Both the position numbers and the translations under genes were made by a program. The notes beneath the pieces were generated by a model. The model did not search any database, was not told where the DNA came from, and worked only from the letters and a program-made list of their open reading frames with translations. 30,453 nucleotides of DNA. Origin: a virus. Below, in pieces: positions 5,263-29,345 of the stretch (positions within the stretch are counted from its first letter, which is position 1; every line of letters begins with the position of its first letter). Where the stretch lies: positions 1 through 30,453 of IMG/VR virus record IMGVR_UViG_3300045996_000582, one strand, 5' to 3'.

Positions 5263-7773
5263 CTAGGCTGACGGAACGCCGCCGTCAATTGACCAGTGCT
5301 TTTCACGCCAGTTAAACCACACATCAATGTTCGCCTCTTCCCAGTTGCCCGGCGTGTACTGAAAGAAGAACTCAATCTCGTTGTCGCCAGGGACCAAAAA
5401 GAAGCCGCCCACGTCCGAGTTGGGCATCAAGTAGTCCGCCCAAACCTTGCGGCGATTGCTCGACACGCTGCCAAGCGCGGTGTTGATGACGGTGCGCTCG
5501 CCGTCGTACTGATAGTGCGACAAACTGCCCCACAAGGTCGCGCCGGTGGTCCAGTTCTTGGCGAAGAGAAAGCGGCCATAGCCGGTGACGACAATGTTTG
5601 GCTGCACCTCGGCTGACCCTTCGTTGGTCACGGTTGTGTGCACTGAATAGTTGTCAAAGCCGCCGGAGTTTGAGCCAAAGGCCGAGAACCACATCACCAT
5701 GTTGTTGCGACCATCGAAGGCGACGCCGCTCCACACCGCCATTGTCGGCATCCGACTCCAGCGATTGCCGCTGTAGACGGCTGAGTGGAAGGTGAAGATG
5801 TCGTCAATTGTGCGCGGCGGCGAAGTTGTCACCGGCGAAGTGGCGCGGAACGAGGAGACGAACAAATCGTCGTTCTCTGGATCGATGTGCATATAGTCCA
5901 GATACCCGTCCGCCGTGCCAAGCCTGACCCATCCCGATCCGCTATGCGCCAGGATGTAGTGGAACGTATTGCCGACATTGGTGTAGCCAGCCGGAACCGT
6001 GGTTGTAGACCGGTAAATTGCGTAAACCGTCGCATTGTCGGCGCTTACCTTGGTGGCGAGCGCGCCGCCAGTCGTGCCGGTCGGCTGGCCGAAACTGGTC
6101 ATCTCCGTCGTGTTAGTGTTGTATGAGACCAGCCCAGGCCGCGCCACGCCGCCCATGGTCGTGAAGGTGCCGTAGATCAGCACCTCGTCGCCGCTTGGTC
6201 GCAGCACGACCCCCCACGGGTTGGCGTTGAACGACGACCAGTTGCCCCAACTTCCGGTAAAGCCGTCGTTGACGGTCATGTCCGGTACGAAGATTGCGCC
6301 GCCGGTCGCACCGGCGCCCCATCCGCCGCCAGTGAAGTTGCCGACGATGAAGTGCTTGTTGTTGTTCGCCACGACCACGCCGACCGCCGCAGCATTAGGC
6401 GTCTGACTGCCCAGTCGCTGGAACGAGGAGCCGTTGTGCTTGACGACATACGGCCAGGCGTTGCCGTTCACCGTCGTGAACGCGCCGACTGCGATGACAT
6501 AGCCGAGGTGGTCGAACGCAATATCGTTGACCGCCCCGCCCGCAAACGTGCCCATGCTGCTGAACGTATCCGACACCGGGTCGTACTTGGCGAATGAGGC
6601 GGTGTTTGCAACGCCGCCGCAGGACGTGAAGGCCCCGCCGAAGTACCAGCAGCCGTCTGGACCATGCTTGACGACATTGACCGCGCCGCCGGTCGGCCCG
6701 GTCCCGCCAGGGACGCTCCAGTCGCCGTTTGCATCGCGGAACATGGCGTAGGTGGTGGAGCTGAGTCCGCGACTGGGCTCATCTATGAAGCCTTTATGCT
6801 CTTGGACCTTGTACCAGTACGGGTCCGAGGCGATCACCTTGATCGGCAGCGTCTCAATCTCATACTTGCCGTCAGCGATCTCAAAGCCGGAGTCGTAGTG
6901 GCACCTGATCTCAATATCTTCGCCGCCGCTGGTGTAGCCGAGAATAAATTCCTGCTGCGGGTACACCAGGTCGGGCTTGATTGCGTCGATCAGCGCCAGG
7001 CGCTTTTGGTGCAAGTCGGCCACACTATTGCCTGCAACTGAGAAAGCCAGCGTGAAAGCGCGCTCAGTCGCCTGCTGACCCTTCCAGAACGAGCCGGGGC
7101 CGTTGCCGTAGGCGACCGAGTTGTTCTTGATCGTCGGCATTCCGGTGCCCTGCTGAGACACCAGGTAGGCGCTGTAGCTGTCCAGGTCCACCTTGCGCCC
7201 GCCTGCGCGGCTCATGCCTGAGCGCGAGCTGGCCGATATGTGCGCGCCAGCCGGTCCGCCGTGCCACTTGCAGCCCTCCTGATCGCCGTCGCAGTAGGTG
7301 GTTTCGTAGGGCAGGTTTTCGATCTGGCAGGCGTCGATGTAGAGCGCGGTGCTGCTGGTTGAGCCCGCGTTCTTGGTAATATAGAAGCGCCGCGAGGCAG
7401 TGGAAGTTTCGGTGTAGCTGACCGAGACGCGCTGCCATTCGCCGGTGCCGACAAAGGTGTCGGTCGCCAGCGCGTTGCCGCTGGTGTCGGCAATGTATAT
7501 TTTGTAGGTCTCGTCCGCCTGGCCCTTGACATAGGCCGAGAAGGTGTAGTCCTCGCCGCTGGTAAGTTGAACTGTGCCGTAGTAGCACCCGCCTGCGTTC
7601 GTGGAGCCGGTCATGCACTTGATGCAGAATGCGCCGCGAAACGACTCCTCGCTGGAGCGAGCGACGCTTGCGGCAGTGCCGCTGGCGGTGTACCCGGTCG
7701 CGTTGATTTCGGCGCTGGGATTTTTGTGCAGGTTCTCAATGCCCTGCGGAAGCACAATGTAGAATTGGCCCAT
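5263..7773 (-). CDS. Distal tail (Dit-type) protein with N-terminal carbohydrate-binding-like domain and inserted beta-propeller
   Basis: The protein has 836 aa, much longer than a normal distal tail protein (about 250-500 aa). Residues 12-156 resemble a CBM4/9-type jelly roll: NLHKNPSAEI, then SGEDYTFSAYVKG, then ALYIDACQIENLPYETTYCD. Residues about 190-325 match the first half of the siphovirus tail-component (Sipho_tail) fold, ending in the characteristic IKVIASDPYWYK. Residues about 340-700 hold repeated blades of the form xGxFTTxxGxxxxxxxVxxYxxxxxxxxxG, a beta-propeller. Residues 710-800 match the second half of the tail component, with TNEGSAEVQPNIVVTG and FFLVPGDNEIEF. The propeller therefore appears inserted between two halves of one fold. 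The start has GAGGGG about 4 bases upstream. The protein should sit at the tail tip just after the tube. Confidence 0.85.
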   Translation of the reverse strand: MGQFYIVLPQGIENLHKNPSAEINATGYTASGTAASVARSSEESFRGAFCIKCMTGSTNAGGCYYGTVQLTSGEDYTFSAYVKGQADETYKIYIADTSGNALATDTFVGTGEWQRVSVSYTETSTASRRFYITKNAGSTSSTALYIDACQIENLPYETTYCDGDQEGCKWHGGPAGAHISASSRSGMSRAGGRKVDLDSYSAYLVSQQGTGMPTIKNNSVAYGNGPGSFWKGQQATERAFTLAFSVAGNSVADLHQKRLALIDAIKPDLVYPQQEFILGYTSGGEDIEIRCHYDSGFEIADGKYEIETLPIKVIASDPYWYKVQEHKGFIDEPSRGLSSTTYAMFRDANGDWSVPGGTGPTGGAVNVVKHGPDGCWYFGGAFTSCGGVANTASFAKYDPVSDTFSSMGTFAGGAVNDIAFDHLGYVIAVGAFTTVNGNAWPYVVKHNGSSFQRLGSQTPNAAAVGVVVANNNKHFIVGNFTGGGWGAGATGGAIFVPDMTVNDGFTGSWGNWSSFNANPWGVVLRPSGDEVLIYGTFTTMGGVARPGLVSYNTNTTEMTSFGQPTGTTGGALATKVSADNATVYAIYRSTTTVPAGYTNVGNTFHYILAHSGSGWVRLGTADGYLDYMHIDPENDDLFVSSFRATSPVTTSPPRTIDDIFTFHSAVYSGNRWSRMPTMAVWSGVAFDGRNNMVMWFSAFGSNSGGFDNYSVHTTVTNEGSAEVQPNIVVTGYGRFLFAKNWTTGATLWGSLSHYQYDGERTVINTALGSVSSNRRKVWADYLMPNSDVGGFFLVPGDNEIEFFFQYTPGNWEEANIDVWFNWREKHWSIDGGVPSA

Positions 7774-7823
7774 GAACCCCTCGTGGTCAAACGAACGTGC
7801 GATGTCGGAGGTCTATTGCTATT

Positions 7824-7854
7824 CTAGCCGCACTTCCGAAATGCGGGCGGCTAG
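7824..7854 (-). other. Hairpin over the stop codon of the tape-measure gene
   Basis: CTAGCCGC and GCGGCTAG form an 8-bp stem that includes the tape-measure TAG stop. A nested alternative, CCGCATTTCGGAAGTGCGG on the minus strand, forms a tight stem with a three-base loop. No U-tract follows, so it is more likely a weak attenuator or RNA-processing/stability structure than a full terminator. It lies in the 77-base gap before the distal tail gene. Confidence 0.5.
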
Positions 7855-10800
7855 GAGGCCAGCCCGCTGTACGCCTGCATGGTTGCGTAGTCGTCTACGA
7901 CCGTGCTGGTGGTCGCCTGGGTGTGAACGGTCATGTGCCAGTGGTGGTGCTCTTCCTTCTTGATCGTTGTGACCGTGTTATTGACCACCCGCTCGGTTGC
8001 GCCCTCCAGGCTTGGCTTGGACTGCTCAACCGCGCCGACGAGCCTGCTGACCGCCTGGTCTAGGCTGCGGCTCATCACCGCCATCGCCCGGTCCACGGTC
8101 GCGTTGACTTGCGCGGTCATTTGCTGCGCGGCCACGTCGAACATCTGCTGCGTGCGGCTGCTGGTCTTCACCTCAGCGCCACGCGGCAGGTGCACAATTT
8201 CGGGGCCGTCCTCACCGACCAGCGCCATTCCGCCGGGGGCGAACATAGTTCCCATGGCGTAGCGGCCAATGTGGTCGATCCGGTCGATCGTCGGCCCGCC
8301 GACTGCGCTGGACAGCTCGTTGATTGCATCGACCGCCTCGTTCACTACGTCGATGACATCGTTGATGGCGTCGATCATCTTGTTCTTGGCAGCCCGCAAG
8401 GCGCGTTGCATAGCCTCGCCAATGCTGTCGCCCGACTGGCCGATCTTGTCGGAAACCCAGTCCCATCCCTTGCTGACCAGTCCCCTGAGCGTGCCGTCTC
8501 CTTCACCGGTGAAGAAGTTTGCGATAACGTCTTTAACCTTGCTGACCGAGTCGCTCACATTCGAGACGATTCCGCCCGCCTTATTCCAGGCATCGCTGGC
8601 GGTGTTCTTGGCGCTCTCCCAGGCTGCGCTCATAGCGTCCCTGGCGGCGTTGACCATCTCGGTCACTTTGTCTTTGAGCGCGGTGGCGGCGCTGACAACG
8701 GCGTCTTTCAGACCGTTCCAGAGGTCGGTCGCCTTAGCCTTAAGCTCGGTCCACTTTTCGATCGCCCACTTAACCCAGGCGGTGATCTTGTTGGTCAGCC
8801 AGTCGATCTTCTCCTGGACCAAGGCTTTCAGGTCCAGGACGAACTGCGTCCAGAGCTGCATGGCCTGGGCTTTGTGGAAGTCCCACTTCTCAAGCAGCCA
8901 GTTGACCCAGGCGACCGCCTGGTCCTGGACCCAAATAAATACGCCAATGACCAGCTCCAGGCCGAGCCGTAGACCCTCAACAATGAATGTTCCCATGTCC
9001 TGGAACAGCTTGGACGGCGAGGCGATGCCAAGGAAGGTCTTGATCCAGGTGATGAACCCGGTCCACCACTCGTTCAGGCGGTCGGCCAGCCACGGCCAGG
9101 CGTCCCTGATGCCGTTCCACAGCCCCTCGATCAGCATTCTCCCGGCGTCGATCATGCCCCATACAAAACCTGCGATCAGGCCAGCAATGCCGGAGAAGAT
9201 ACTGATGAACAGTCCGACGACGATGTTCAGGCCGGTCCAGACCAGCTTGCCGATCACCACCAGGGCGTTCCAAATGACTGCGGCGACGCCCGCCAGCAGC
9301 AGCAGCAGGTACTGCGGCACGTTCACAATCACGGCGATCAGCAAGTTGGACACGAATGCCAGCGCCTGCATGACCAGGCGTCCCAGGCCGAGCGCCAGGC
9401 CGAAGACAATCGCGGGCAGCGCCTGAGCGATGCTGTTGACCGTGTTCAGAATAAGGTTTAGCGCCGCCTGGAGCAGGCGTGGCACGTTCACGATGATCAG
9501 CGTCAACAGGTTTGGAATGGCCGAGGAGATCAGCCAGATTCCCAGCCGCTGGAGCAGGCTCAGAATGATCCTGGTCAGCTCGGTCAGGATGATTGGGCCA
9601 TACGTGCCGATCCAGACCAGCGCCTTGCCGATCAGCGGCGGCAGGTACTCGGCCAGCCAGTTGACCACATTGGCGAGCATATTGACCAGGTGCGGCAGTC
9701 CGGTCTGTAAAATCCAGTTGCCCGCCATGATCACAAAGTCCAGCAGCTTGTTCAGGCCGACTTCCAGCGCTGGCAGGATGCGCGGTCCAAGCCAGGCCAT
9801 GGCCGTGGCGATCAGGTCGCCAAGCTTGGACAGCAGCGGTGAGACCATGCCGCTGATCCACTCAAAGATGCCGCCGCCCGCCGTCTTGGCCGAGGAGAAC
9901 CACTTGGGCGCCTCGGTCACAAGGTAGGAGATCGCCTGGCCCGCCAAAGCGCCCAGCTTGCCGATTACAATCGGTATCATGCCCTGGACCCAGGCGATTG
10001 CCAGCGGAACCCACTCGGCCAGCTTGCCCTTGAGCCAGGTCCAGGCGCTGGACAGTGCGTTCAGCGCCCACGGCAGGCCCGTACCGATCAGCCAGTTCCA
10101 GGCGCCCTGGAGCACTGCGGTAATCGCTCCGATGATCTTCTGCATATCCTCGGAGTTGACAAAGCCCAGCACGCCCTTCCAGATCGAAGCGAAGATGTCC
10201 TGAATGAGCGAGCCGAGCGCAGGCAGCGCATTAAGCAGCGCCTTGAACCCGGCGACGATCCCGCCCTCCTGAAACACCGCGACGATCCGCGAGATGATTG
10301 CAACGATCAGCTCCAGCTTGGGTCCAATGATATTCCAGACGGTCTGAACGATCTGTTGAATGCCGCCGAAGTTGGTCGCCCAAATTGCGCCCAGGGCGGC
10401 GGCGGCGATCATGATCAGCCCCATTGGGCTCAGGACAAACGCAATAGCCGAGCCGAGCGCTGCAAACAATGGGGCCAGTCGCATGATCAGCAGGCCAAGC
10501 TGGAGCCAGCCTTGGTGCGCTGCAATGACGGTGAGAACGCCTGCCAGCGCGCCCAGGACGGCGCGGTTCTGGTCCAGGAAGCTTGTGAACCGGTTGATCG
10601 GGTTCATAGCGCTCTGGACATTGCTTTTGAAGATGTTTACGCGTGCGTTCACCTTGTCAAAGAACTCGGAGAAGCGCGTCCCCAGGGTTTTAAGCGGCGT
10701 AGTAGCAGCGTCGATCTCGGTCTTGAGGCTGTCCAGCGGGTTGCCCTTGAACAGGCTGCCCGGCTTGGGAGCGTCGGCCTTGCCCTTGCCTGCGCCCGCC

Positions 10801-15565: not shown

Positions 15566-16084
15566 TTACCGCTCGAACTGAATGTAACCAGGCAGGGCGC
15601 TCGGATTGGTCAGGGTGTACAGACCGATGAAGGTCAATTCCAGGACCGTCTCCTTGCTCTCCGAAAGCTCGATGTTGCCAAGCTCGACATACGCCTGCGG
15701 GATAGTGGCCTTGAACGCCTTGCCATCGTTGCGGGTGATGCCGGTGACAATCACGTCCTCGACCTCGGTGATCGTGCCGATGTTGCCGCCGCCGATCTTC
15801 TCCGAGTTGGCGTCCGAGCTGGCGCCGTAGCTGCCGCAGAACAGCGAAAGCACGCTGTACTGCCACTCGGTGATCTTGCACTTGATTTTGAAATCGCCCT
15901 TGATCACCCGGCCCGTACCGGCGACCGGCCCGCGAGCCTGCGCCAGGTCAGGGTAGTATTGCTCGATCGACCACTCGACCGAAATGGCGTCCTCGGTGGC
16001 GCCGATGTCGGTGCCGTCCACGGTCAGGTATCCGCCCGTGCCATACAGAATGTTGTTGCCAGTATTGGCGCTAATGCCGCCCAT
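15566..16084 (-). CDS. Major tail (tube) protein
   Basis: The protein has 172 aa, a normal size for a siphovirus tube protein. The N-terminus has a Gly-rich strand set (NILYGTGGYLTVDGTDIGAT). It continues as alternating beta strands with a central acidic/hydrophobic pattern (ITEVEDVIVTGITRNDGKAF) and a C-terminal strand-rich domain with TLTNPSALPGYIQFER. The ATG has a strong GGAGGG about 6 bases upstream, fitting high expression. It precedes the chaperones and tape measure and is followed by a structured region with a strong terminator, all typical of major tail genes. It would polymerise into the tail tube around the tape measure. Confidence 0.88.
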   Translation of the reverse strand: MGGISANTGNNILYGTGGYLTVDGTDIGATEDAISVEWSIEQYYPDLAQARGPVAGTGRVIKGDFKIKCKITEWQYSVLSLFCGSYGASSDANSEKIGGGNIGTITEVEDVIVTGITRNDGKAFKATIPQAYVELGNIELSESKETVLELTFIGLYTLTNPSALPGYIQFER

Positions 16085-16746: not shown

Positions 16747-17003
16747 ACCGCTCTCCAGACACGGCCATACCGTGTCATGCTCACAAGTTCAGTCAAAAAG
16801 TAATCCCGATACACAGGGTAGCCAAGCCGGTCAGTAAACCGCAGCATAATGCGGCTGTCGCTCGCTTGAACGACGATGCCGGTCTGTCCCGCAAAGGGCA
16901 GGCTACCCTGCGTCGGCACAGACACACGCAAGCCTTGCGGCCACACGAATGTCTGCAAACTACCTCGCGTGGGTCCACTCAGTCCAACCCATGTTTTTGC
17001 CAT
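16743..17003 (-). CDS. Small beta-rich protein, hypothetical (start uncertain)
   Basis: The protein has up to 86 aa. The ATG at 17003 overlaps the lyase gene by 44 bases and has no Shine-Dalgarno, so a later GTG or TTG start (around residue 16-21) may be the true one. Residues about 26-75 read as a small all-beta barrel (VSVPTQGSLPFAGQTGIVVQ, then IMLRFTDRLGYPVYRDYF), similar in pattern to SH3- or KOW-like folds. The stop overlaps the ATG of the holin-like gene (ATGA), which supports real translation. Function unknown. Confidence 0.6.
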   Translation of the reverse strand: MAKTWVGLSGPTRGSLQTFVWPQGLRVSVPTQGSLPFAGQTGIVVQASDSRIMLRFTDRLGYPVYRDYFLTELVSMTRYGRVWRAV

Positions 17004-18219
17004 GGGTTGCAGCGCTGGTGGGGAAGCTCGTGCCGTACATCTTGTTCACGATGTAGGTGATGAACGTGTCATCGCCCTCCGGCGCGTACTGATTCTGGTT
17101 GAACTGCCAGGTCGCAGCCCGTTTCAGCGCCTGGTTCGACCAGTTGGGCGAGTCGTAGCCAGCGCGGCGCAACACCTCGAAGGCCACCGAGAAGCCCTGC
17201 ATGGCCTCCCACACATAGTTCTCGTTCGGCGGGTTGCTCGTCACCGAACCGGCGGTGCGGCGCTGGTCGTCGGGCAGCACGCCGTCCACGTTGACGCCGC
17301 CAATGGTCGCGCCCTGCGGATTCACCCCGACCGGAGCGGACGGGTTGGCCTGCCAGGTCAGCTCGCCAAACTCGAACTTGGCGTATGCGGCGCGGTCGCC
17401 CGCGTAGCCGCGCCATACCAGGGCGGCGGCGTTCAGGTCGTTTACGTCGCCCAAATAGCGAGCGATAATGACACGGGCCGCGCCCGCGTGCGTACCCCAG
17501 TTGTTCGGGCGGTCGTTGTGGGTTGAGATGATTGAGCGACCGTCAAAGCTGCGGGTCCGAACCGCCGCCAACCAGGTGCGGAAGGCGGTCTCGCGGGAAG
17601 GGTCAAAGGACTTGAAGTTGATGATGTCCGCCGCGAGAACGTAGCCCTGGATATTGCGGCTGATCTCCAGCGACCGGCTGCTCGACTCGGTGCCGATTGC
17701 GCTCATAATCGCAGCGGCGACCTTGCTTTTCATGGCCGAGTCGTTGTTCCGCACCGCGATCAGCGCGCCCGCCAGGGTCAGCACGTCGTGGTTGCTGTTC
17801 AGATCGGACAGATTCGGGCTGCCCCATGAGCCGTTGGCTGCGTTCAGCACCTTGCTGTATGCCGCGCCGCTGTTGGGCAAGGCCAGTATCTCGGCCTGGC
17901 TGATCCAGATGCCGCTTGTGCTCGCAGGCGTTGTGACGACGGGCGGAGCGGTGGGCGCGGGCGCGGCGGTCGGCGCCGGAACAGCAGTCGGCGCAGCGGT
18001 GGGCGCGGTCGGCTGAGTCGGGGCGACTACCGCAGCCTTGCAGGCCAGCGAGGCGGTCTGCGAAGATGCGCTTGCCACCAGTGTGACCGTCAGCGTGGAC
18101 GGGCATGAGACATTCAAGACATCGCCTGCGGCCATTCCGATGTTGTTGGTCGCCGCGTAGGCGGCGCCGGAACCGAGCGCTACGACGAGGGCGAGAATGC
18201 AGAGTACGATGCGTCGCAT
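16960..18219 (-). CDS. Secreted alginate-lyase-like polysaccharide lyase
   Basis: The protein has 419 aa. Residues 1-22 are a signal peptide ending in AAYA. A small Cys-containing beta domain (about 24-68) and a Pro/Thr/Ala/Val linker (about 69-115) precede the catalytic domain, about 120-419. That domain is helical and carries SRNIQGYVLAADIINF and the NNWGTHAG motif. The Asn-His pattern matches the catalytic region of alginate lyases of the PL5-type (alpha/alpha)6 fold, which cleave uronic-acid polysaccharides by beta-elimination. AGGAGG lies about 11 bases before the ATG. A Sec-type signal on a phage-borne lyase is unusual: the enzyme would leave the infected cell rather than stay on the virion. 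The family call is by motif; substrate unknown. It is followed by a holin-like gene. Confidence 0.75.
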   Translation of the reverse strand: MRRIVLCILALVVALGSGAAYAATNNIGMAAGDVLNVSCPSTLTVTLVASASSQTASLACKAAVVAPTQPTAPTAAPTAVPAPTAAPAPTAPPVVTTPASTSGIWISQAEILALPNSGAAYSKVLNAANGSWGSPNLSDLNSNHDVLTLAGALIAVRNNDSAMKSKVAAAIMSAIGTESSSRSLEISRNIQGYVLAADIINFKSFDPSRETAFRTWLAAVRTRSFDGRSIISTHNDRPNNWGTHAGAARVIIARYLGDVNDLNAAALVWRGYAGDRAAYAKFEFGELTWQANPSAPVGVNPQGATIGGVNVDGVLPDDQRRTAGSVTSNPPNENYVWEAMQGFSVAFEVLRRAGYDSPNWSNQALKRAATWQFNQNQYAPEGDDTFITYIVNKMYGTSFPTSAATHGKNMGWTEWTHAR

Positions 18220-18311: not shown

Positions 18312-19334
18312 TTAGTCGTAGTGTTGCTGGAGGAAGGTGTACGCTTTCTGCGTCACCTGCTCCCAGGTCCACTGCTTCGATTCGTGCGACGCCTGGTCGC
18401 CCATGGCGTGCAGCTCGTCGCGGTGGTTGTAGGCCCACCTGATCGCCTCGACCGCCGCCTCGAACGATGGCTGGGCGATCTCAGCCTTGTAGTTAAAGCT
18501 GGCGGTGAGCGAAGGCGAAGGCACGTTGTGCGGGCAGGGAATCCGCAAGTAGCTATCGGTCAGATACTCGCGCATTCCGGTGTTGTCCGCGCAAATAACC
18601 GGGAGACCGGTCGCGGCCATTTGCAGCGGCATAAGGCCGAAGCCCTCGCCGCCGGAAAGGTAGATGCCGCAGTCGCCGGAGTGCAGCCAGGACACCAGCT
18701 TGTTCATCGGCCAGGAGCCGGAGTGCAAGGTTACGTTCGCCAGCGGGTTGCCGCGCTCGTCGGAAAACAGCTTGCCGACGTTGGCGCCCATGCCGTTAAA
18801 TGAGTAGACCTTGATCTCCAGCTCGGCGTCCGGCAGCCCTGCCGCGACAAACGCCTTCGCCGCCAAAAACACATTTTTGCGGCTGACCAGCGTATCGGCC
18901 CAAATGATGAACTTCATGCGCTGGCTGCGCTCGCGGCGGTCAAGGTACTCAAACGAGTGATGCTTGATGCCGTAGCCGGAGACGAATATCGGCGCAGTGA
19001 CGCCCTCCTGGCGAAACAGATCGTGACAATACTGTGAGGGCGTCCAGATCAAGCCCGCGCAGTTTAGGTTGTCCGACCAGCCGGGCGGCAAGGCGGTGGC
19101 CTCGAACATAGTGTGAAACACCAGGTCGGGACGGTGATGCCGGTGGTTGCCGATCGCCCAGGCAGTGGGCGTGCAGACCGAGATCAGCGCGTCCCAGCCG
19201 GTCTCGTATGGGCTGTGTATCTTGGCGCCCAGGCGAATAAGTTCGGGCCGGTACTGAGCGGCGATGCTGCCGTAGCCATTCGCCTGATCAGCCTCCCAAG
19301 CCATCCAGCCCAGGGTCAGGTCGCGGTATGTCAC
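18312..19334 (-). CDS. Glycosyltransferase family 4-type (GT-B fold)
   Basis: The protein has 340 aa with a GTG start overlapping the upstream stop (GTGA). The N-terminal half resembles an acceptor-side Rossmann domain. The C-terminal half begins around MKFIIWADTLVSRKN and contains the donor-site motif SGGEGFGLMPLQMAATGLPV at about 230. This matches the E-x7-E motif of GT4 enzymes except that the second Glu is Gln. Such enzymes are retaining transferases that move a sugar from a nucleotide-sugar. No membrane helix or signal is seen. It lies after the tail terminator and before the lyase. Together with the upstream GT2 and methyltransferase genes it suggests phage-directed glycosylation, perhaps of virion proteins. 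Confidence 0.85.
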   Translation of the reverse strand: MTYRDLTLGWMAWEADQANGYGSIAAQYRPELIRLGAKIHSPYETGWDALISVCTPTAWAIGNHRHHRPDLVFHTMFEATALPPGWSDNLNCAGLIWTPSQYCHDLFRQEGVTAPIFVSGYGIKHHSFEYLDRRERSQRMKFIIWADTLVSRKNVFLAAKAFVAAGLPDAELEIKVYSFNGMGANVGKLFSDERGNPLANVTLHSGSWPMNKLVSWLHSGDCGIYLSGGEGFGLMPLQMAATGLPVICADNTGMREYLTDSYLRIPCPHNVPSPSLTASFNYKAEIAQPSFEAAVEAIRWAYNHRDELHAMGDQASHESKQWTWEQVTQKAYTFLQQHYD

Positions 19335-19543
19335 GGGGTTGTCTCCTTCTGCTGCGCCTGCTCAATGTATTTTTGAGCAATGCGGGCGGTCAGGTCGTTC
19401 AGGGCGGCTTCTTCGTCTTCTTTACTGGTCTCCTGGCGCGTGCGGGCGTAGCTGTAGCCGACGAATAAGGCCAGCATAACGCCGAACATGACGCCGCAGC
19501 AGAGCGCGAACAGCACCAGGGTTACGACAACGGCTCCGCTCAC
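19331..19543 (-). CDS. Small single-pass membrane protein
   Basis: The protein has 70 aa with a GTG start overlapping the stop of the tail-terminator gene (GTGA); its own stop overlaps the GT4 start. One long hydrophobic segment spans about residues 5-30 (VVVTLVLFALCCGVMFGVML), followed by a charged, helical C-terminal tail rich in Glu, Gln and Lys. The layout would fit a spanin-like or accessory lysis protein or a membrane partner of the neighbouring glycosyltransferase. No lipobox is present. Function unassigned. Confidence 0.75.
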   Translation of the reverse strand: MSGAVVVTLVLFALCCGVMFGVMLALFVGYSYARTRQETSKEDEEAALNDLTARIAQKYIEQAQQKETTP

Positions 19544-19968
19544 GGCAGGCTCCTTTCAACAAAGTGAAGATTGAATACGGCGTAGGTGAACGACCAGCCG
19601 TCCTGAAAGTCCACCCGGTCCTGCGGGCCGCTGCGCCGGTTCGCCTTCTGGAAAATCACATCCTCGCCGCTGACGGTGATATGGACGTGGGTTTTGAAGC
19701 GAAAGAAGTTCGCCAGCGCCAAGTAGACCTCCCTGGCCTGGCTTGCGTCGGGCGCCCAGCAGTAGAACACGAAGTCTTCGCGAGTGATTGGCGTGTACTC
19801 GTCGTCCGCCCCGCCGTCGCCCAAGAAGACGATCGCCTTGCGAATGGTAAAGTCGTCAGGCAGTCCCGGCGGGCCGTAGATGTGTACGCCGTCCGCGTCA
19901 GTGACGACGCCCGCAAGCGTTGCATCGGATGTGAGCAGGACATACAGCGCTTCTGCGGTGTCAATCAT
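19540..19968 (-). CDS. Tail terminator (tail completion) protein
   Basis: The protein has 142 aa, the usual size for tail-terminator or minor tail U-like proteins. The N-terminus is helical (IDTAEALYVLLTSDATLAGVV), then a strand region with a DDFTIRKAIVFLGDGGADDE turn, and a C-terminal strand ending FTYAVFNLHFVERSLP. These proteins cap the tail tube and join it to the head connector. The position, third after the first connector and just before the small membrane protein, matches HK97-like order. The ATG overlaps the upstream stop (ATGA). The call rests on size, pattern and gene order. Confidence 0.75.
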   Translation of the reverse strand: MIDTAEALYVLLTSDATLAGVVTDADGVHIYGPPGLPDDFTIRKAIVFLGDGGADDEYTPITREDFVFYCWAPDASQAREVYLALANFFRFKTHVHITVSGEDVIFQKANRRSGPQDRVDFQDGWSFTYAVFNLHFVERSLP

Positions 19969-20819
19969 TCCTGGCCTCCCTTGTTGCCCTGAATACGCCT
20001 TCGCAGCTCGTCAATATCGGACTGAATTGCATCCTCGATGTTCTTCGGCTCCTTCGGCTTTTGCGATGTCGTCTGCGCGGGCGCCTGGGGCTTCTTATCG
20101 GCTGGCTTCTTGAGCTTATTGGTCTCGACCCGGCGCTTCTTGCGCGCCAGCGCCTGGGTTGCCTTGCGTGAGATGGTCAGAATCGACTTGACATACTCTT
20201 TGTGGCTGCCAATACTCTCGATCGCTTCGCTGACGGTCGCATTCAGCGCTTCGTCGTCGCCTTTATTCGCCGCCAGGATGCGGTTGAACTCCTCAGTGTC
20301 GGCAATAAACTTGGCGATTTTCCGCTCATCCATAATTACGCCAGCGCGGCGACCCTTGGTCGAGTCGGCCAGGGTTCGTTTCAGGCGGGTTCTGGCGACC
20401 GCAGCGAACTCCTTCTGCGCCTTCTCCCAGGCCGGTTTCAGCCACGGATAGCGGTAAATCTCGCCGCTCGGCCCGGTCCAGCCAATCTCAAGGTAGGCGC
20501 CCGCCTGGCTTGGCGTGTAGACGTAGCAGTGAACGAAAATACCGTCCGGCACACGCCTGATGCCCAGTTGCGAACCGAGACCGCCGCCCTTGATGCCGCG
20601 ATCCTCGTACACCCAGCCGTAGTCGGTGCGGTGCGGGTGCGGACCCGGCCCTTTGTCGGCGTCCACGTTCTCAGCCGCGTACTCCTTGGCCTTGCTGCCG
20701 ACCTCGGCCAGAATATCGAGCACAGCGCGAGCTGACATGCCCTGGAACTCTTTCAAGTTCATCGAGGCGGTCATGCGCTGCGAAAATTCAATCAGTTTTC
20801 CATCAACCCTGGTAGGCAC
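19965..20819 (-). CDS. HK97 gp10-like head-tail joining protein with long C-terminal extension
   Basis: The protein has 284 aa; typical HK97 gp10-like proteins have about 110-180 aa. The GTG start at 20819 overlaps the previous stop by one base. The first about 150 residues fit the family: an N-terminal helix region, then RTDYGWVYEDRGIKGG, and a characteristic AYLEIGWTGPSG, IYRYPWLKPAWEKA segment. From about residue 170 on the sequence is helical and very basic, with KKRRVETNKLKKPADKKPQA and a final charged helix (IDELRRRIQGNKGGQE). This extension is probably disordered or a coiled coil and may contact DNA or the tail. It is needed for joining filled heads to tails. Confidence 0.8.
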   Translation of the reverse strand: MPTRVDGKLIEFSQRMTASMNLKEFQGMSARAVLDILAEVGSKAKEYAAENVDADKGPGPHPHRTDYGWVYEDRGIKGGGLGSQLGIRRVPDGIFVHCYVYTPSQAGAYLEIGWTGPSGEIYRYPWLKPAWEKAQKEFAAVARTRLKRTLADSTKGRRAGVIMDERKIAKFIADTEEFNRILAANKGDDEALNATVSEAIESIGSHKEYVKSILTISRKATQALARKKRRVETNKLKKPADKKPQAPAQTTSQKPKEPKNIEDAIQSDIDELRRRIQGNKGGQE

Positions 20820-21247
20820 TAGCCGACGCTCCTGCGAATAGTCAGCCGCATATGGTGGTTGCGGCCAGCCGGAGTCTGAATGCTCTCAATATCGAATGGT
20901 CCGGCGTCGTAAAGCTCGCCGTCCTCGTCGTAGACATCCCATATTTGCCAGTTGGCGGCGGCGTCCTGCTCCTTGAGGCCGCTCGGCACCTCCTGGGCGG
21001 GCAGGTACAACACGTAGTAGGCAGTGTTCTCCGCCGCCTTGCCCTGGGTGCTCTGCTCCTGCATGGTCTGCGGGCGGCACAGGCACTGGTCAATTGCGTA
21101 GGTCTCTTCGGCGTCCATGCGACCGCCCGCCAGAATAGGCACGCTCTTATGGCCGTAGCTGCCGCTCGTGCTTACCGCCCGCCGCTCACCCTTAATCAGC
21201 GTGCAGGTGTGGATCATCAACTTGTCGAAGTTAAAGTCCTGGTTCAT
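20819..21247 (-). CDS. Head closure protein (putative)
   Basis: The protein has 142 aa with an ATG one base after the upstream stop. It is beta-rich: LMIHTCTLIKGERRAVSTSG near the N-terminus, a short Cys-x-Cys in the middle (IDQCLCRPQTM), and a C-terminal DAGPFDIESIQTPAGRNHH followed by a strand ending in LTIRRSVG. This is the pattern of head-closure or stopper proteins (gp16/gpFII-like) that bind below the connector. It sits between the adaptor and the gp10-like gene, where a stopper is expected. Assigned by position and general fold, without a diagnostic motif. Confidence 0.7.
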   Translation of the reverse strand: MNQDFNFDKLMIHTCTLIKGERRAVSTSGSYGHKSVPILAGGRMDAEETYAIDQCLCRPQTMQEQSTQGKAAENTAYYVLYLPAQEVPSGLKEQDAAANWQIWDVYDEDGELYDAGPFDIESIQTPAGRNHHMRLTIRRSVG

Positions 21248-21248
21248 G

Positions 21249-21872
21249 TCACCACTTCACGTTGCTGTGAATCGTCGTGCGCTTGAAGCGCGCCAGAATG
21301 CCCGCCACCTCGTTCGGCGGACCGTTCTTGAGGTAGTCCAGCGCCGCCGAGTACGAGACCGAGTAGTCGCCAATGCTGGTGCTCTTAACGCCCGCGTTCT
21401 TAGTCGCCTGAATGAGGTAGCTGATCCAGGCGTTGCAGGCCAGCGCGATCGAGGTCGGCGTGTTGCCGTCCGAGTCTAAAAAGCCCCACACGCCAGTTAC
21501 TTGAATTGCCGCCTGGTCGGTCCTGACCCAGCGGAAGCCGTAGCCGTAGTGCTTGTTGGTCACAATCCAGCGGTAGGGCGGGCCAAACAACGGGTACAGA
21601 ATGTAGTATTGCGAGTCCAGCGTCTCGTTGTCGCCGTGCACAATGCTGGTGAGCGAGTGCAGATCGCCGCGCAGGTGCAGCTTGAACTGCTCCTGGTAGT
21701 CGTAGGTCTGCGTCTCGGTCTTGGCGTAGAAATGCCGGTGGCAGTACCCGTCGATCTCGCGGCTGACCGGCGCAATTAGCGACGAGATCAGCGCGTCATC
21801 CTTGGTGTTCGCCGTTTTGTATTGCCGGAAAGTGCGAAACCCCGCCAGTGTTGTGTAATCGCCTACCGCCAC
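21249..21872 (-). CDS. Head-tail adaptor (connector) protein
   Basis: The protein has 207 aa. The start is a GTG at 21872. The N-terminus has the helical adaptor pattern (YTTLAGFRTFRQYKTANTKD, then LISSLIAPVSREIDGYCHRHFY), as in HK97 gp6 / SPP1 gp15-like proteins, where an Asp-rich helical start is followed by 'I..FC.R.F'. A central beta insertion follows (LRGDLHSLTSIVHGDNE), then a helical segment and a C-terminal GDYSVSYSAALDYLKNG, another hallmark of the family. It should form a ring below the portal. It opens the connector set that continues downstream. Confidence 0.85.
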   Translation of the reverse strand: MAVGDYTTLAGFRTFRQYKTANTKDDALISSLIAPVSREIDGYCHRHFYAKTETQTYDYQEQFKLHLRGDLHSLTSIVHGDNETLDSQYYILYPLFGPPYRWIVTNKHYGYGFRWVRTDQAAIQVTGVWGFLDSDGNTPTSIALACNAWISYLIQATKNAGVKSTSIGDYSVSYSAALDYLKNGPPNEVAGILARFKRTTIHSNVKW

Positions 21873-21876
21873 GGTG

Positions 21877-22155
21877 TTACCTCAAGTCCTTCAAAGCCGC
21901 TCGGATGGCGGCTTGCGGTGTAGCACACGCTCCCGTGCAGTAGCGCAGCCCCATACGGTCGTTGCGCTCAGACACGTCACGCATCACATGCCAGGGATCG
22001 GTGTCGATCAGCAGGGTCCATTTGTTGTCTTTACTACTGTGCAGGCTGGCGAACTTGCCTTCTTTTTGCCAGTCGGCAAGCTGATCGAACAGGTCCTGGT
22101 CGTCCCAGTTGTCTGGACTAACAGCTTGTCGTGGCCGCGAGTTCATTGTGTTCAT
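21877..22155 (-). CDS. Small acidic protein, hypothetical
   Basis: The protein has 92 aa. The ATG at 22155 has GAGGGG about 6 bases upstream; an ATG three codons later is also possible. The protein is soluble, with DNWDDQDLFDQLADWQKEGK near the N-terminus and a C-terminal Gly/Ala helix (GACATPQAAIRAALKDLR). The middle KWTLLIDTDPWHVMRD could be a beta strand with an adjacent helix. It lies between the glycosylation set and the head-tail adaptor. No family is recognised. Confidence 0.75.
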   Translation of the reverse strand: MNTMNSRPRQAVSPDNWDDQDLFDQLADWQKEGKFASLHSSKDNKWTLLIDTDPWHVMRDVSERNDRMGLRYCTGACATPQAAIRAALKDLR

Positions 22156-22167
22156 TGTCGTCCCCTC

Positions 22168-22863
22168 TTATGGGTGGATCACCAGTTGATTCGGGTCCAG
22201 CCAGAGCTGATAGCCCTGGGCGTTCATGTCATAGCCAAAGCCGACGATGCCGAACTCCGGCGGGGTGAAACGCGCCTTGCGGGCGACCTCGCCGCGCATG
22301 ACGATGCACGAGCCAGCGCTGTCGATCGGGGTCAAAATGTCCTGCACGTCCAGGTGGTACGGCGGCTTGGGCTGGAACTGCTTGCCGTTCTTGCGAAAGC
22401 CCCAGGTGTCATAGAACAGCCCGGTCGTCGCGTGAAAGCACATGGGCGCAACTGCGTTCACCTGCCACAGATGCCGGATCAGGCTGGTCATGACATCGGG
22501 GCTCCACAGCAGATCGCTCTCGACGTAGATCACGATGTCATCGCTTGGCTGAATGCGATCGAGCGTTGCATTGCACACCCTGGAGATATTGCGCCAGCGG
22601 GTCTTGTTGTCCACCGATCCGAAGGACGGCCCGCCGTGGTTGACTTGCTCAAGGTCGTAGGAGAAGCCTTTTCCGGCAGCCGCCAGGTCCAGCAAGTCGT
22701 AGGTGTCGTCGGTCGAGTCGCCCTCGGTCAAGACGAGACGGAGCGAATGGGTGTTCTGCGGATGCAGCTTGTTGATTGCGTCCCTGAGCAAGCTGGCCTG
22801 GCGAATGTAGCGATCGACGTAGCTGCTGCTATTGCGAAAGATTGATGCCAGTACAAAGTTCAT
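22168..22863 (-). CDS. Glycosyltransferase, GT-A fold (GT2-like)
   Basis: The protein has 231 aa. The ATG at 22863 overlaps the methyltransferase stop (ATGA) and has GGGAGG about 7 bases upstream; the longer upstream frame is not needed. An N-terminal nucleotide-binding segment has LVLTEGDSTDDTYDLLD, like the conserved DGSTDDT of GT-A enzymes. The metal-site region is YVESDLLWSPDVMTSLIRH, with an E-S-D acid motif. A later PIDSAGSCIVMRGEVARKA and a C-terminal FGIVGFGYDMNAQGYQLWLD fit acceptor-side elements. Soluble, with no membrane helix. Part of a coupled group with the methyltransferase and the DPM1-like transferase. Substrate unknown. Confidence 0.75.
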   Translation of the reverse strand: MNFVLASIFRNSSSYVDRYIRQASLLRDAINKLHPQNTHSLRLVLTEGDSTDDTYDLLDLAAAGKGFSYDLEQVNHGGPSFGSVDNKTRWRNISRVCNATLDRIQPSDDIVIYVESDLLWSPDVMTSLIRHLWQVNAVAPMCFHATTGLFYDTWGFRKNGKQFQPKPPYHLDVQDILTPIDSAGSCIVMRGEVARKARFTPPEFGIVGFGYDMNAQGYQLWLDPNQLVIHP

Positions 22864-23531
22864 ACAATGCCTCCCAGGCGACCAATAAACGACGGAACCC
22901 AGCGCGAGCTTGTGTGCCACAGCACGCCGAGCACGCCGGGGGTCGGAAGCTGGAGCAAGTGGTAGCCCCGATCGCACAAAAAGTTGGCGGCGGCGCGCAC
23001 ATCCGGCATCCACAGGTCGTGCATGACGATTGCGGCGTCCTCGGCCAGGTGCGGCAGCAGACCTTCCACGTCACGGCGCGGCTGGCCGTCCAGGTGCCAT
23101 CCATCGACAAACGCCACCTCCCACTTGGGGTGGCCGTAGGCGATCAGCGGCAAAACGCCGGGTGAGTCGGCTTCCCACAGCCGGACTCTGTCTGTAACAG
23201 AGGCGCGGTCCATGTTTCGCCAAAAGCGCTCGGAGACCTTCGGGTTTGGCCCTTCCAGCTTCCCCGCGCCCTCGCGCAGGTTGTCCACACAATCGAGCGT
23301 GCCGTCTAAGTGCCAGGCCAGGTGCGCCGAGGACCAGCCGACGTAGCTGCCGATCTCGATCGCCCGGCGCGGATCGACCGCCAGAATCAGCGCGTCCAGG
23401 ATCAGCGCCTCGGTTTCGGTGCAGGTGAGCGCGCCGCCCAGCTCGGCGTCCTGAAAGAAGGTTCCGCCGATTGGGCTGGGTGAGGCGACCTCGATCAGAT
23501 CAGGAAAGAAGCGCCGCAAGGATGTCCTCAA
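22860..23531 (-). CDS. Class I SAM-dependent methyltransferase (Methyltransf_24 type)
   Basis: The protein has 223 aa with a TTG start at 23531 chosen because AGGAGG lies about 5 bases upstream. The SAM-binding motif I is AIEIGSYVGWSSAHLAW (about 58-74). Motif-like acids follow in LDCVDNL, and VAFVDGWHLDG with RRDVEGLLPHL near 143-163. IVMHDLWMPDVRAA is the post-motif strand and helix. This arrangement is typical of small-molecule and sugar O-methyltransferases rather than DNA or rRNA enzymes. Its position between two glycosyltransferases suggests sugar methylation. Substrate is inferred from context only. Confidence 0.85.
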   Translation of the reverse strand: MRTSLRRFFPDLIEVASPSPIGGTFFQDAELGGALTCTETEALILDALILAVDPRRAIEIGSYVGWSSAHLAWHLDGTLDCVDNLREGAGKLEGPNPKVSERFWRNMDRASVTDRVRLWEADSPGVLPLIAYGHPKWEVAFVDGWHLDGQPRRDVEGLLPHLAEDAAIVMHDLWMPDVRAAANFLCDRGYHLLQLPTPGVLGVLWHTSSRWVPSFIGRLGGIV

Positions 23532-23540
23532 GCTGACCTC

Positions 23541-24272
23541 CTACCAGTCAATTTCATGCAAATTGGAGCCAGGCCAGCCAATGTCTAAGACCAGGCGCCG
23601 GTACGCCTTGAACGCCTCCAAAGCGACCTTAAGGTTGAAGCTCGAAACGCCCGCCCGATAGGTGATCGGCGCCTCGCGGACATCAGCCCCAAGCTCCAGG
23701 GCGTAGCCCAGGACCTCGATCTGCCAGCCGTGCATCTTGCACGCATACGGCAGCTCCAGCAGGGCGCGCACGAGCGCGGGATTGAAGATGCGGTAGCCGC
23801 TGGTCCAGTCCTTGATCAGCGCGCCGGTGGCCCAGTTGCACGCCAGTGCGGCGAGCTTGCTCAGGAATGGCCTGAGCCCGTGCGTCGGCGCAAACTCCCA
23901 GGGCCGCACATACTGCGCTTCGGGAACGAAGCGGCTGCCAATGATCAGATCGGGGGCGTAGGCCAGCTTCGCCATGGTCAAAATGTCACGCGGGTCGTGC
24001 GAGCCGCCTGCGTCAATTTGAATGATTTTGCGCGGGTTGTCCTCAAGCGCCCGCGCCCAGGCTTTCATGAGGCCGGGGCCGATGCCTGCGCCGCCGCCGG
24101 TTTGGCCGACCCAGTAGGCTCCGGCTTCGAGCGCTGCGAGCACAGTGTCATCACTGGAACCGTCGTCCACCAAGTAGACCCGATACCATTCGCTCCCAAA
24201 CTGGGAAAATTCCTTCACCAGTGAAGCAATTGTGCGTTCTTCGTTGTAGGTTGTGATGACAACTGCTATCAT
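23541..24272 (-). CDS. Glycosyltransferase family 2, DPM1-like
   Basis: The protein has 243 aa. The ATG at 24272 overlaps the previous stop by one base (TAATG). Family motifs are clear: VVITTYNEERTIASLV at the N-terminus, LVDDGSSDDTVLAALEAGA, QIDAGGSHDPRDI and DWTSGYRIFNPALV. This matches polyprenol-phosphate mannosyl- or glucosyltransferase (DPM1) sequences, but the usual DAD metal site is DAG here. No C-terminal membrane helices are present, so it is a soluble DPM1-type enzyme, normally using a nucleotide-sugar and a lipid or other acceptor. It heads the transferase-methyltransferase group, interposed between virion genes. Confidence 0.88.
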   Translation of the reverse strand: MIAVVITTYNEERTIASLVKEFSQFGSEWYRVYLVDDGSSDDTVLAALEAGAYWVGQTGGGAGIGPGLMKAWARALEDNPRKIIQIDAGGSHDPRDILTMAKLAYAPDLIIGSRFVPEAQYVRPWEFAPTHGLRPFLSKLAALACNWATGALIKDWTSGYRIFNPALVRALLELPYACKMHGWQIEVLGYALELGADVREAPITYRAGVSSFNLKVALEAFKAYRRLVLDIGWPGSNLHEIDW

Positions 24273-27896: not shown

Positions 27897-29345
27897 CTAC
27901 GCAGCAACCTTCTGCGCCGTCAGACGCCACTGCTCCAGCGGCTGTCCGCCGAGGCGCCGTCGCATGACGTAGTAGATCAGGTTCTGGCGAGCCGTTTGGC
28001 TGTCCAGATAGCGCTCCACGGTCATGCCCAGCCGGTCCACAATCGTGTAGGCCGAGAGATCACCGAAGAGGATCGGGAAGGCGTTGGCAGCCACATCGGG
28101 CATGTCCTCGTCCTCCAGCACCGGGTAGCCCAGGAGCTGGTGCCCGATCGGGTTGTGCTCGCCCAGGCTGCCGCCCACCTGCGCGTAGGGGGTCAGCAGG
28201 TAGTTGTTGTTGGCGTCCTTCATCAAGGCGATCGCCTGCAACGTGGACTTGTTCATCAACCACACCGAGTTCTGCTGGCGGTACTGCGCCGGAACCGCGA
28301 ACGGAACCTTGATCAGGCCGTCCCAGGTCAGGCTGCTGCCCGCGCCGGAGTTGACTTCGGTGTAGCTCTGGCTGTTGGCCGCGCCGGGCAGAAGACCCAG
28401 CGGCTTGCCAACGCCGTTGCCGAGGATGAACTGGCGATCCTCGTCAATCGCAGCCGCCTCAGCGAGCTTGCGGGCCAAATAGCCCTCAATGTCGAAGGCG
28501 CTGTCCTCGATCAGGTTGCGGGACAACGGCGTCTCGGCCATGGCCGTGTGAACGCTGATGCCGCGCAGACCGAAGGTCACATAGTTTTCAGCAATGCTGC
28601 CCACGGTCGGGGTCTCGTCAACCCAGGTCACGCGCACAGGCGAGGTGTACTTGCCCGACGCGCCGGTGGCCTCCGGCAGCTCAACCCGGTCACGGCTGGT
28701 GCTCATGACCGAAGCGCGCTGGCGGATAACGGTCAGACCAGCCATGCGCTCAAGCAGCCGCATCTGGAAATCGACCGGGACCATGAAGCCGCCCAGGGTG
28801 TCGGCAGCCTCAACCATCGTCGTGCGGAAGGTGGCGATGTCCTCAACGCCCTGGTTCAGCGCCATTTTCACGGCGGCAGGCGTGAAGACCAGCTCGGACA
28901 GGCGGGCGCGATGCTCGCTGTTCAGAGCCTCGATGCCGCCCCGAATGTAGCGGCGGAACGCAGCCTTCTGCGCCCAGTAGGCGCTCTCGTGGTCGTTGCC
29001 ATGCAGTTCGGTCAGAATCTGCTTGACCATGGACGGCGTGTCACCGAACCGCGCCGCATAGGCGGCCTGGCGGGTGCTGGCGTCCAGACCGGCCACGGTC
29101 GGCTCGGTCTTCGCTACAGGCTCGCTCGACGCAACCTGCGGCACATTGCCCTCACCGGTCCCTGGCAGGGTCGGGCGCACAGGCGCATACGACTTGCTCA
29201 GTTCCTCGGTCTTCTTGGCTTCCGCAAGCATGTCGCGGATGCCCTCAGCCTCGGCGTTGGCACTTTTCAGTGCTTCCAGATTGCCCGCTGCAATCGCAGC
29301 CTTGGCATCGGCAACCGCCTTCTGGAGTCGCTCCATCAGTTCCAT
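27897..29345 (-). CDS. Major capsid protein, HK97 fold
   Basis: The protein has 482 aa. Residues 1-45 form a charged helical coil (ERLQKAVADAKAAIAAGNLE), followed by a flexible Pro/Gly/Thr-rich stretch. This is the usual N-terminal scaffolding (delta-like) domain, so no separate scaffold gene is needed. HK97-type capsid motifs begin near 185 (DTLGGFMVPVDFQMRLLERM) and continue with ASVMSTSRDRVELPE, VTWVDETPTVGSIAE, LSRNLIEDSAFDIEGYLARK, AIDEDRQFILGNGVGKPLGL and a late LGYPVLEDEDMPD. GGAG lies 10 bases before the ATG and overlaps the protease stop region. The protein builds the icosahedral head and its N-terminus is presumably removed by the adjacent protease. Confidence 0.96.
   Translation of the reverse strand: MELMERLQKAVADAKAAIAAGNLEALKSANAEAEGIRDMLAEAKKTEELSKSYAPVRPTLPGTGEGNVPQVASSEPVAKTEPTVAGLDASTRQAAYAARFGDTPSMVKQILTELHGNDHESAYWAQKAAFRRYIRGGIEALNSEHRARLSELVFTPAAVKMALNQGVEDIATFRTTMVEAADTLGGFMVPVDFQMRLLERMAGLTVIRQRASVMSTSRDRVELPEATGASGKYTSPVRVTWVDETPTVGSIAENYVTFGLRGISVHTAMAETPLSRNLIEDSAFDIEGYLARKLAEAAAIDEDRQFILGNGVGKPLGLLPGAANSQSYTEVNSGAGSSLTWDGLIKVPFAVPAQYRQQNSVWLMNKSTLQAIALMKDANNNYLLTPYAQVGGSLGEHNPIGHQLLGYPVLEDEDMPDVAANAFPILFGDLSAYTIVDRLGMTVERYLDSQTARQNLIYYVMRRRLGGQPLEQWRLTAQKVAA

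Follow-up and report, generated by a model that had tools for sequence, protein, structure and literature searches.

Sugar-modifying enzymes in the late operon of an uncultured phage and their possible part in virion glycosylation

Described systems of viral glycosylation

According to three later articles (PMC12363180, PMC11256854, PMC12619734), virion glycosylation was reported for the mycobacteriophages Che8, Corndog and Myrna by Freeman et al. 2023, and the glycosyltransferases (GTs) of Che8 glycosylate its capsid and tail tube proteins (PMC12363180). Che8 is the nearest working precedent for the set of enzymes analyzed here. The likeness lies in several phage GTs occurring together, and the sole shared element is the Methyltransf_24 Pfam domain, which in Che8 gp108 is fused to a GT2. 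Homology to the Che8 virion GTs gp108–110 was tested and rejected, as the sequences are not homologous. The Che8 GT genes are also found towards the 3' genome end, whereas the present enzymes are located inside the virion operon.

In the chlorovirus PBCV-1, A064R is a GT-GT-methyltransferase for the capsid glycan, in which the O-methyltransferase caps the glycan (PMC9614988). The chlorovirus systems resemble the present set in their soluble virus GTs and O-methyltransferase, and B736L of NY-2A is the best solved relative of the present GT4, the role and acceptor of B736L itself being open (PMC9614988). They differ in the eukaryotic host, the N-linked glycans and the absence of an operon shared with capsid genes. 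The fibrils of the Mimivirus family are glycosylated by variable clusters of GTs, aminotransferase, acetyltransferase, methyltransferase and sulfotransferase (PMC10117803). This is the toolset seen across the phages of this study taken together, but the giant-virus clusters are large and the present locus includes only GTs and one methyltransferase. The GtrABC serotype conversion systems are approached by the GT2, which resembles GtrB (phrog_841). Unlike them, the present set lacks GtrA and the Gtr membrane transferase, and its GT2 has no membrane helices, including the C-terminal ones; no flippase or multi-helix membrane protein was found near the enzymes in this record, which is a fragment.

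The enzymes and their place in the operon

The window, which here means the whole stretch of DNA analyzed, comprises an IMG/VR virus record of 30,453 bases from an uncultured phage. Its minus strand carries a standard siphovirus late operon from the protease and major capsid protein (MCP) to the tape measure. Interspersed among the adaptor, closure, neck and terminator genes of this operon are a DPM1-like GT2, a Methyltransf_24 methyltransferase, a GT-A and a GT4. The features are listed below in operon order, with identities to the related viral locus L003 where available.

27897..29345, minus: MCP, upstream border of the variable interval; PF05065 E=6e-61, 49% to L003
27317..27817, minus: orf166, 166-aa protein behind the MCP, kept in relatives; phrog_28483 E=9e-16, 41% to L003
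24272..24757, minus: orf161, 161-aa protein; homologue of a 109-aa virion-module gene of L003, 44% over 52 aa
23541..24272, minus: DPM1-like GT2, soluble; PF00535 E=5e-9, GtrB-like phrog_841 E=7e-8
22860..23531, minus: class I methyltransferase, Methyltransf_24; PF13578 E=6e-13
22168..22863, minus: GT-A glycosyltransferase; PF00535 E=0.0035, below cut-off
21877..22155, minus: 92-aa ORF in the gap between GT-A and adaptor; without family match (Pfam/PHROGs)
21249..21872, minus: head-tail adaptor; phrog_442 E=2e-19
20819..21247, minus: head closure, by position, without family match; 28% to the L003 gene at the same place
19965..20819, minus: neck or tail completion protein (gp10-like); phrog_5 E=0.006, 30% to L003
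19540..19968, minus: tail terminator; phrog_123 E=0.08, 35% to the L003 terminator at the same place
19331..19543, minus: 70-aa protein (TM70) with a single transmembrane segment at its N-terminus; 4-base overlaps couple it to GT4 on one side and to the terminator on the other
18312..19334, minus: GT4 glycosyltransferase (phrog_2170 family); PF00534 E=1.6e-8, phrog_2170 E=2.8e-26
15566..16084, minus: major tail protein (MTP), downstream border of the variable interval; phrog_885 E=3.5e-4, 30% to L003

Profile matches for closure, neck and terminator are weak; the identity of these genes is confirmed by one-to-one homologues that L003 carries in an identical arrangement (28, 30 and 35%, respectively). 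The positions of the four enzymes on the minus strand and their interleaving with the connector genes agree with the original prediction, and the junctions are mostly overlaps of 1–4 bases: one base for orf161/GT2 and neck/closure, and four bases for methyltransferase/GT-A, terminator/neck, TM70/terminator and GT4/TM70. As these overlaps are accompanied by good ribosome-binding sites, the enzyme and virion genes are coupled. The GC content is even across the enzyme set. For GT-A, the best start is the ATG at 22863, preceded by GGGAGG, which gives the gene 22168–22863.

The gap between GT4 and MTP contains an alginate-lyase-like gene (16960–18219, minus strand; PF05426 E=6e-7), the product of which has a signal-peptide-like N-terminus and a P/T-rich linker and is probably exported; this is unusual for a virion operon. 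The sole long plus-strand gene (7–1155) encodes a protein with one transmembrane segment and P/T/A-rich linkers, without family match, and might hint at the host group. No prophage was found in MCP scans of 84,980 genomes.

The GT4 exceeds the cut-off of Pfam Glycos_transf_1 (PF00534; 34.7 bits against 26.4) and has the two Rossmann-like domains and the EGFG...E/Q donor motif of GT-B enzymes. The fold matches of its AF2 model (pLDDT 92.9) are GT4 enzymes, the best being chlorovirus B736L (3oy2, E=2e-15), which is also the closest solved relative by profile (E=3e-12). Gln occupies the second Glu position of the E-x7-E motif, and this had been proposed to indicate an unusual donor or acceptor. 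Among the 102 members of the phage GT4 family (redundant contigs included) the residue at this position is Q in 48 cases and E in 45, and E is found in the nearest relatives L003, L007 and L020. The Gln is real but ordinary in the family, and it was consequently rejected as the mark of an unusual GT4.

The GT2 carries the DPM1 motifs (DDGS and a DxTSGFR-like motif) in the alignment, but has DAG in place of the DAD metal/donor motif, four homologues having DAD or DGD. Here, too, the substitution itself was confirmed; the unusual donor or acceptor read from it is one possibility, and DAG could equally signal a weak or inactive enzyme. DPM1-like GT2 enzymes normally produce polyprenyl-phosphate sugars at the membrane. 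For the methyltransferase, tblastn found no homologue in phages or plasmids, and single-protein scans of viral contigs with the GT2, GT-A and methyltransferase gave no matches.

PHROGs includes no family for the window GT-A. The alignment query of viral contigs, the sole way in which its family was reached, recovered 47 viral loci with up to 42% identity and with invariant GDSxDxT, ESD (D117) and FYDxW motifs; this is a previously undescribed, phage-borne GT-A family. The L020 homologue matches Anp1 below the cut-off, and ESD with the invariant D117 is the candidate for the DxD equivalent in the window GT-A. The structural model has low confidence (pLDDT 55) and its matches are limited to GT-A-fold enzymes; a match to COLGALT1 was rejected as a guide to specificity because the model is too weak.

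Relatives and the interval between capsid and tail genes

L003 has the window order for nine virion genes and GT4 (33%), including MCP, orf166, orf161, adaptor, closure, neck, terminator and MTP. It is without homologues of the window GT2, GT-A and methyltransferase, and its gap between terminator and GT4 holds a non-homologous GT2, a second GT4 (GT4b) and a different methyltransferase. A TnpB-like ORF, recognized by eye from its zinc-ribbon sequence, lies inside the L003 sugar gene set (6134–7255, minus strand). In L007 the GT4 is located directly behind the terminator, and the order in L020 is terminator, hexapeptide acyltransferase, GT-A homologue (33%, E=3e-21), GT4 and MTP. GT4 orthologues thus occupy the same place in all three loci, overlapping the MTP gene by 4 bases in L003 and L020, while the window has the alginate-lyase-like gene in between.

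The identities between L003 and L020 are 59% for GT4, 47% for neck, 45% for MTP and 41% for terminator, and those of all other pairs are 27–39%, so that the divergence of GT4 keeps pace with that of the connector and tail genes. Since L020 has no match to the window-type MCP, GT4 seems to move with the connector-tail part and not with the capsid gene. A search for the same four genes in related phages did not recover the set: the window combination was found in no other phage, GT4 being kept and the other three swapped. In these gene orders GT4 is the constant member and the other three are exchanged for different sugar chemistry within the MCP-to-tail interval, where the replacements include other GTs, other methyltransferases, hexapeptide acyltransferase and sulfotransferases. 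The four window genes can be seen as a single example of a set of sugar-chemistry genes that is open to exchange within the virion operons of phages.

The loci retrieved by GT4 or GT-A query, which include those described next, are by this very choice of query selected for holding those genes. In 17 of the 54 GT4 loci examined, unrelated phages show the order minor head, scaffold and MCP (phrog_283) followed directly by GT4, in most cases accompanied by two more GT-B genes. About 20 GT4 loci are of a Streptomyces-phage type, in which GT4 precedes a ribonucleotide reductase and then, where the contig reaches, a portal gene. A phrog_3116 protein, which judged by its position may be a capsid protein, lies directly before the phrog_2170 GT4 in L153, L023, L056 and L075.

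The loci of the GT-A family have their enzymes placed between MCP/adaptor and neck/MTP. A hexapeptide acyltransferase was present within 2.5 kb of GT-A in 29 of the 47 loci, with one match elsewhere in 339 kb; a DegT/DnrJ sugar aminotransferase was found in all six loci tested, preceding GT-A in several, and a formyltransferase in one (L124). The order in L143 is head decoration, MCP, adaptor, small gene, DegT aminotransferase, acyltransferase, GT-A, GT4-like, GT4, neck, small gene and MTP, which is a nucleotide-aminosugar pathway with transferases within the virion operon.

Searching with the MCP involves no selection for sugar genes, and a sugar-modifying enzyme was present downstream of the MCP in nine of its 24 loci, many of them short fragments (L007, L003/L018, L015, L016, L110, L111, L112, L115 and L114). 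Sulfotransferases lie directly behind the MCP and o149, a decoration-like gene, in L015, L016, L110, L111, L112 (two) and L115, and sulfation of the phage particles or their glycans is possible. L114 has a row of a two-domain GT, a rhamnosyl-O-methyltransferase/CmcI-like gene (below cut-off) and a sulfotransferase-like gene (by eye, without Pfam match). In L104–L109 and L113 downstream sequence is present, and no such enzyme was seen in it. L115 also includes a diversity-generating retroelement (7622–10550), with the variable repeat at 9089–9205 at the end of a 530-aa protein, the template repeat at 9253–9369 and the reverse transcriptase at 9486–10550; 12 of the 13 differences between the repeats are at template A.

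In the five largest contigs, sugar enzymes accounted for 13 of the 55 ORFs lying between MCP and MTP and for three of the 126 ORFs outside this interval (p=1.6e-5); several of these contigs had been retrieved by GT4 itself, and the capsid border of L020 was set by position. All three outside matches are GT2s in G002. No relevant article on sulfotransferases or aminotransferases encoded in the capsid modules of phages emerged from literature searches.

Possible functions of the enzyme set

That the phage glycosylates its own virion proteins with the operon-embedded enzymes, as originally predicted, is the best-supported reading and is probably, though by no means certainly, correct; homologues of the enzymes are accompanied by virion genes and not by host-polysaccharide genes, the latter having been named in the original prediction as a refuting outcome, while for acceptor, donor and product we can only infer. 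Translational coupling would cause the enzymes to be made along with the proteins of connector and tail. Their action on a virion protein would take place in the cytoplasm, either ahead of assembly or in the course of it. GT4, as the constant enzyme, would most likely attach the first or core sugar. A subunit of the tail or connector is the probable acceptor because GT4 moves with terminator, neck and MTP and not with the capsid gene; orf166 is a candidate decoration protein and also a candidate acceptor. GT2 and GT-A would lengthen the chain and the methyltransferase would O-methylate a sugar, plausibly as a cap, the sugar donors presumably being supplied by the host. Fast turnover of the peripheral enzymes would provide related phages with chemically different coats, which may help to evade host or competitor binding or to keep the particles stable.

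The enzymes could instead modify surface polysaccharides of the infected host, be it O-antigen, capsule or wall polymer, leading to superinfection exclusion or serotype conversion, and phage GTs are well known to bring about the latter. The best phage family of the GT2 is GtrB-like; this counts against the virion reading as well, as do the membrane chemistry normal for DPM1-like enzymes, the possibly dead DAG site, the lack of homology to the Che8 GTs and the MCP relatives in which downstream sequence shows no such enzyme. The putatively secreted alginate-lyase-like protein adjoining GT4 indicates that the phage handles polysaccharides. However, a GtrA flippase, a multi-helix Gtr and GT membrane anchors are all missing near the set, the enzymes lie within the late virion operon in many lineages, and late expression would be poorly timed for exclusion. 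Modification of the host surface is therefore considered unlikely, and less likely than virion glycosylation. The Streptomyces phages in which members of the same GT4 family adjoin a ribonucleotide reductase gene, with the portal gene further downstream, likewise speak against virion glycosylation and, together with ThyX in Evy, could point to decoration of modified bases in phage DNA by the GTs and methyltransferase; DNA-glycosylating phage GTs are known (PMC12619734). This is very improbable, as there is no base-modification gene near the set, the acyl-, amino-, formyl- and sulfotransferases of the relatives are sugar-tailoring and not base-modifying enzymes, and Methyltransf_24 is not of the DNA-methylase type, seen elsewhere as PF01555.

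The set might also be unrelated cargo in an insertion-tolerant place of the late operon, consisting of small-molecule enzymes or partly decayed genes such as an inactive DAG GT2. The differences in peripheral enzymes among close relatives, the DAG substitution and the TnpB-like insertion in L003 would fit this, but GT4 is retained and co-diverges with the virion genes, the genes brought in are not random but encode sugar-chemistry enzymes in nearly every case, and all enzyme frames are intact with tight overlaps, so that cargo seems a rather improbable explanation.

Virion glycosylation, in turn, would supply a function for the undescribed phage GT-A family and for phrog_2170. A wider and more tentative proposal, held with somewhat less than even confidence, is that the head-to-tail part of the operon harbours, in many tailed phages, a hotspot of exchangeable glycan-coat genes, with a core GT and swapped genes for aminosugars (DegT, hexapeptide acyl- or formyltransferase), O-methylation and sulfation, and thus a chemically distinct coat for each phage. 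If true, it would mean coat variety like that of the giant viruses packed into a few kilobases. Phage virion glycosylation has so far been documented in a few mycobacteriophages; with sugar-tailoring enzymes recognizable amid the capsid and tail genes of diverse uncultured phages, it would turn out to be common. This operon signature would predict which phages carry such coats and with what chemistry (amino, methyl, sulfate), and it would account for differences among phages in adsorption, stability and immune recognition.
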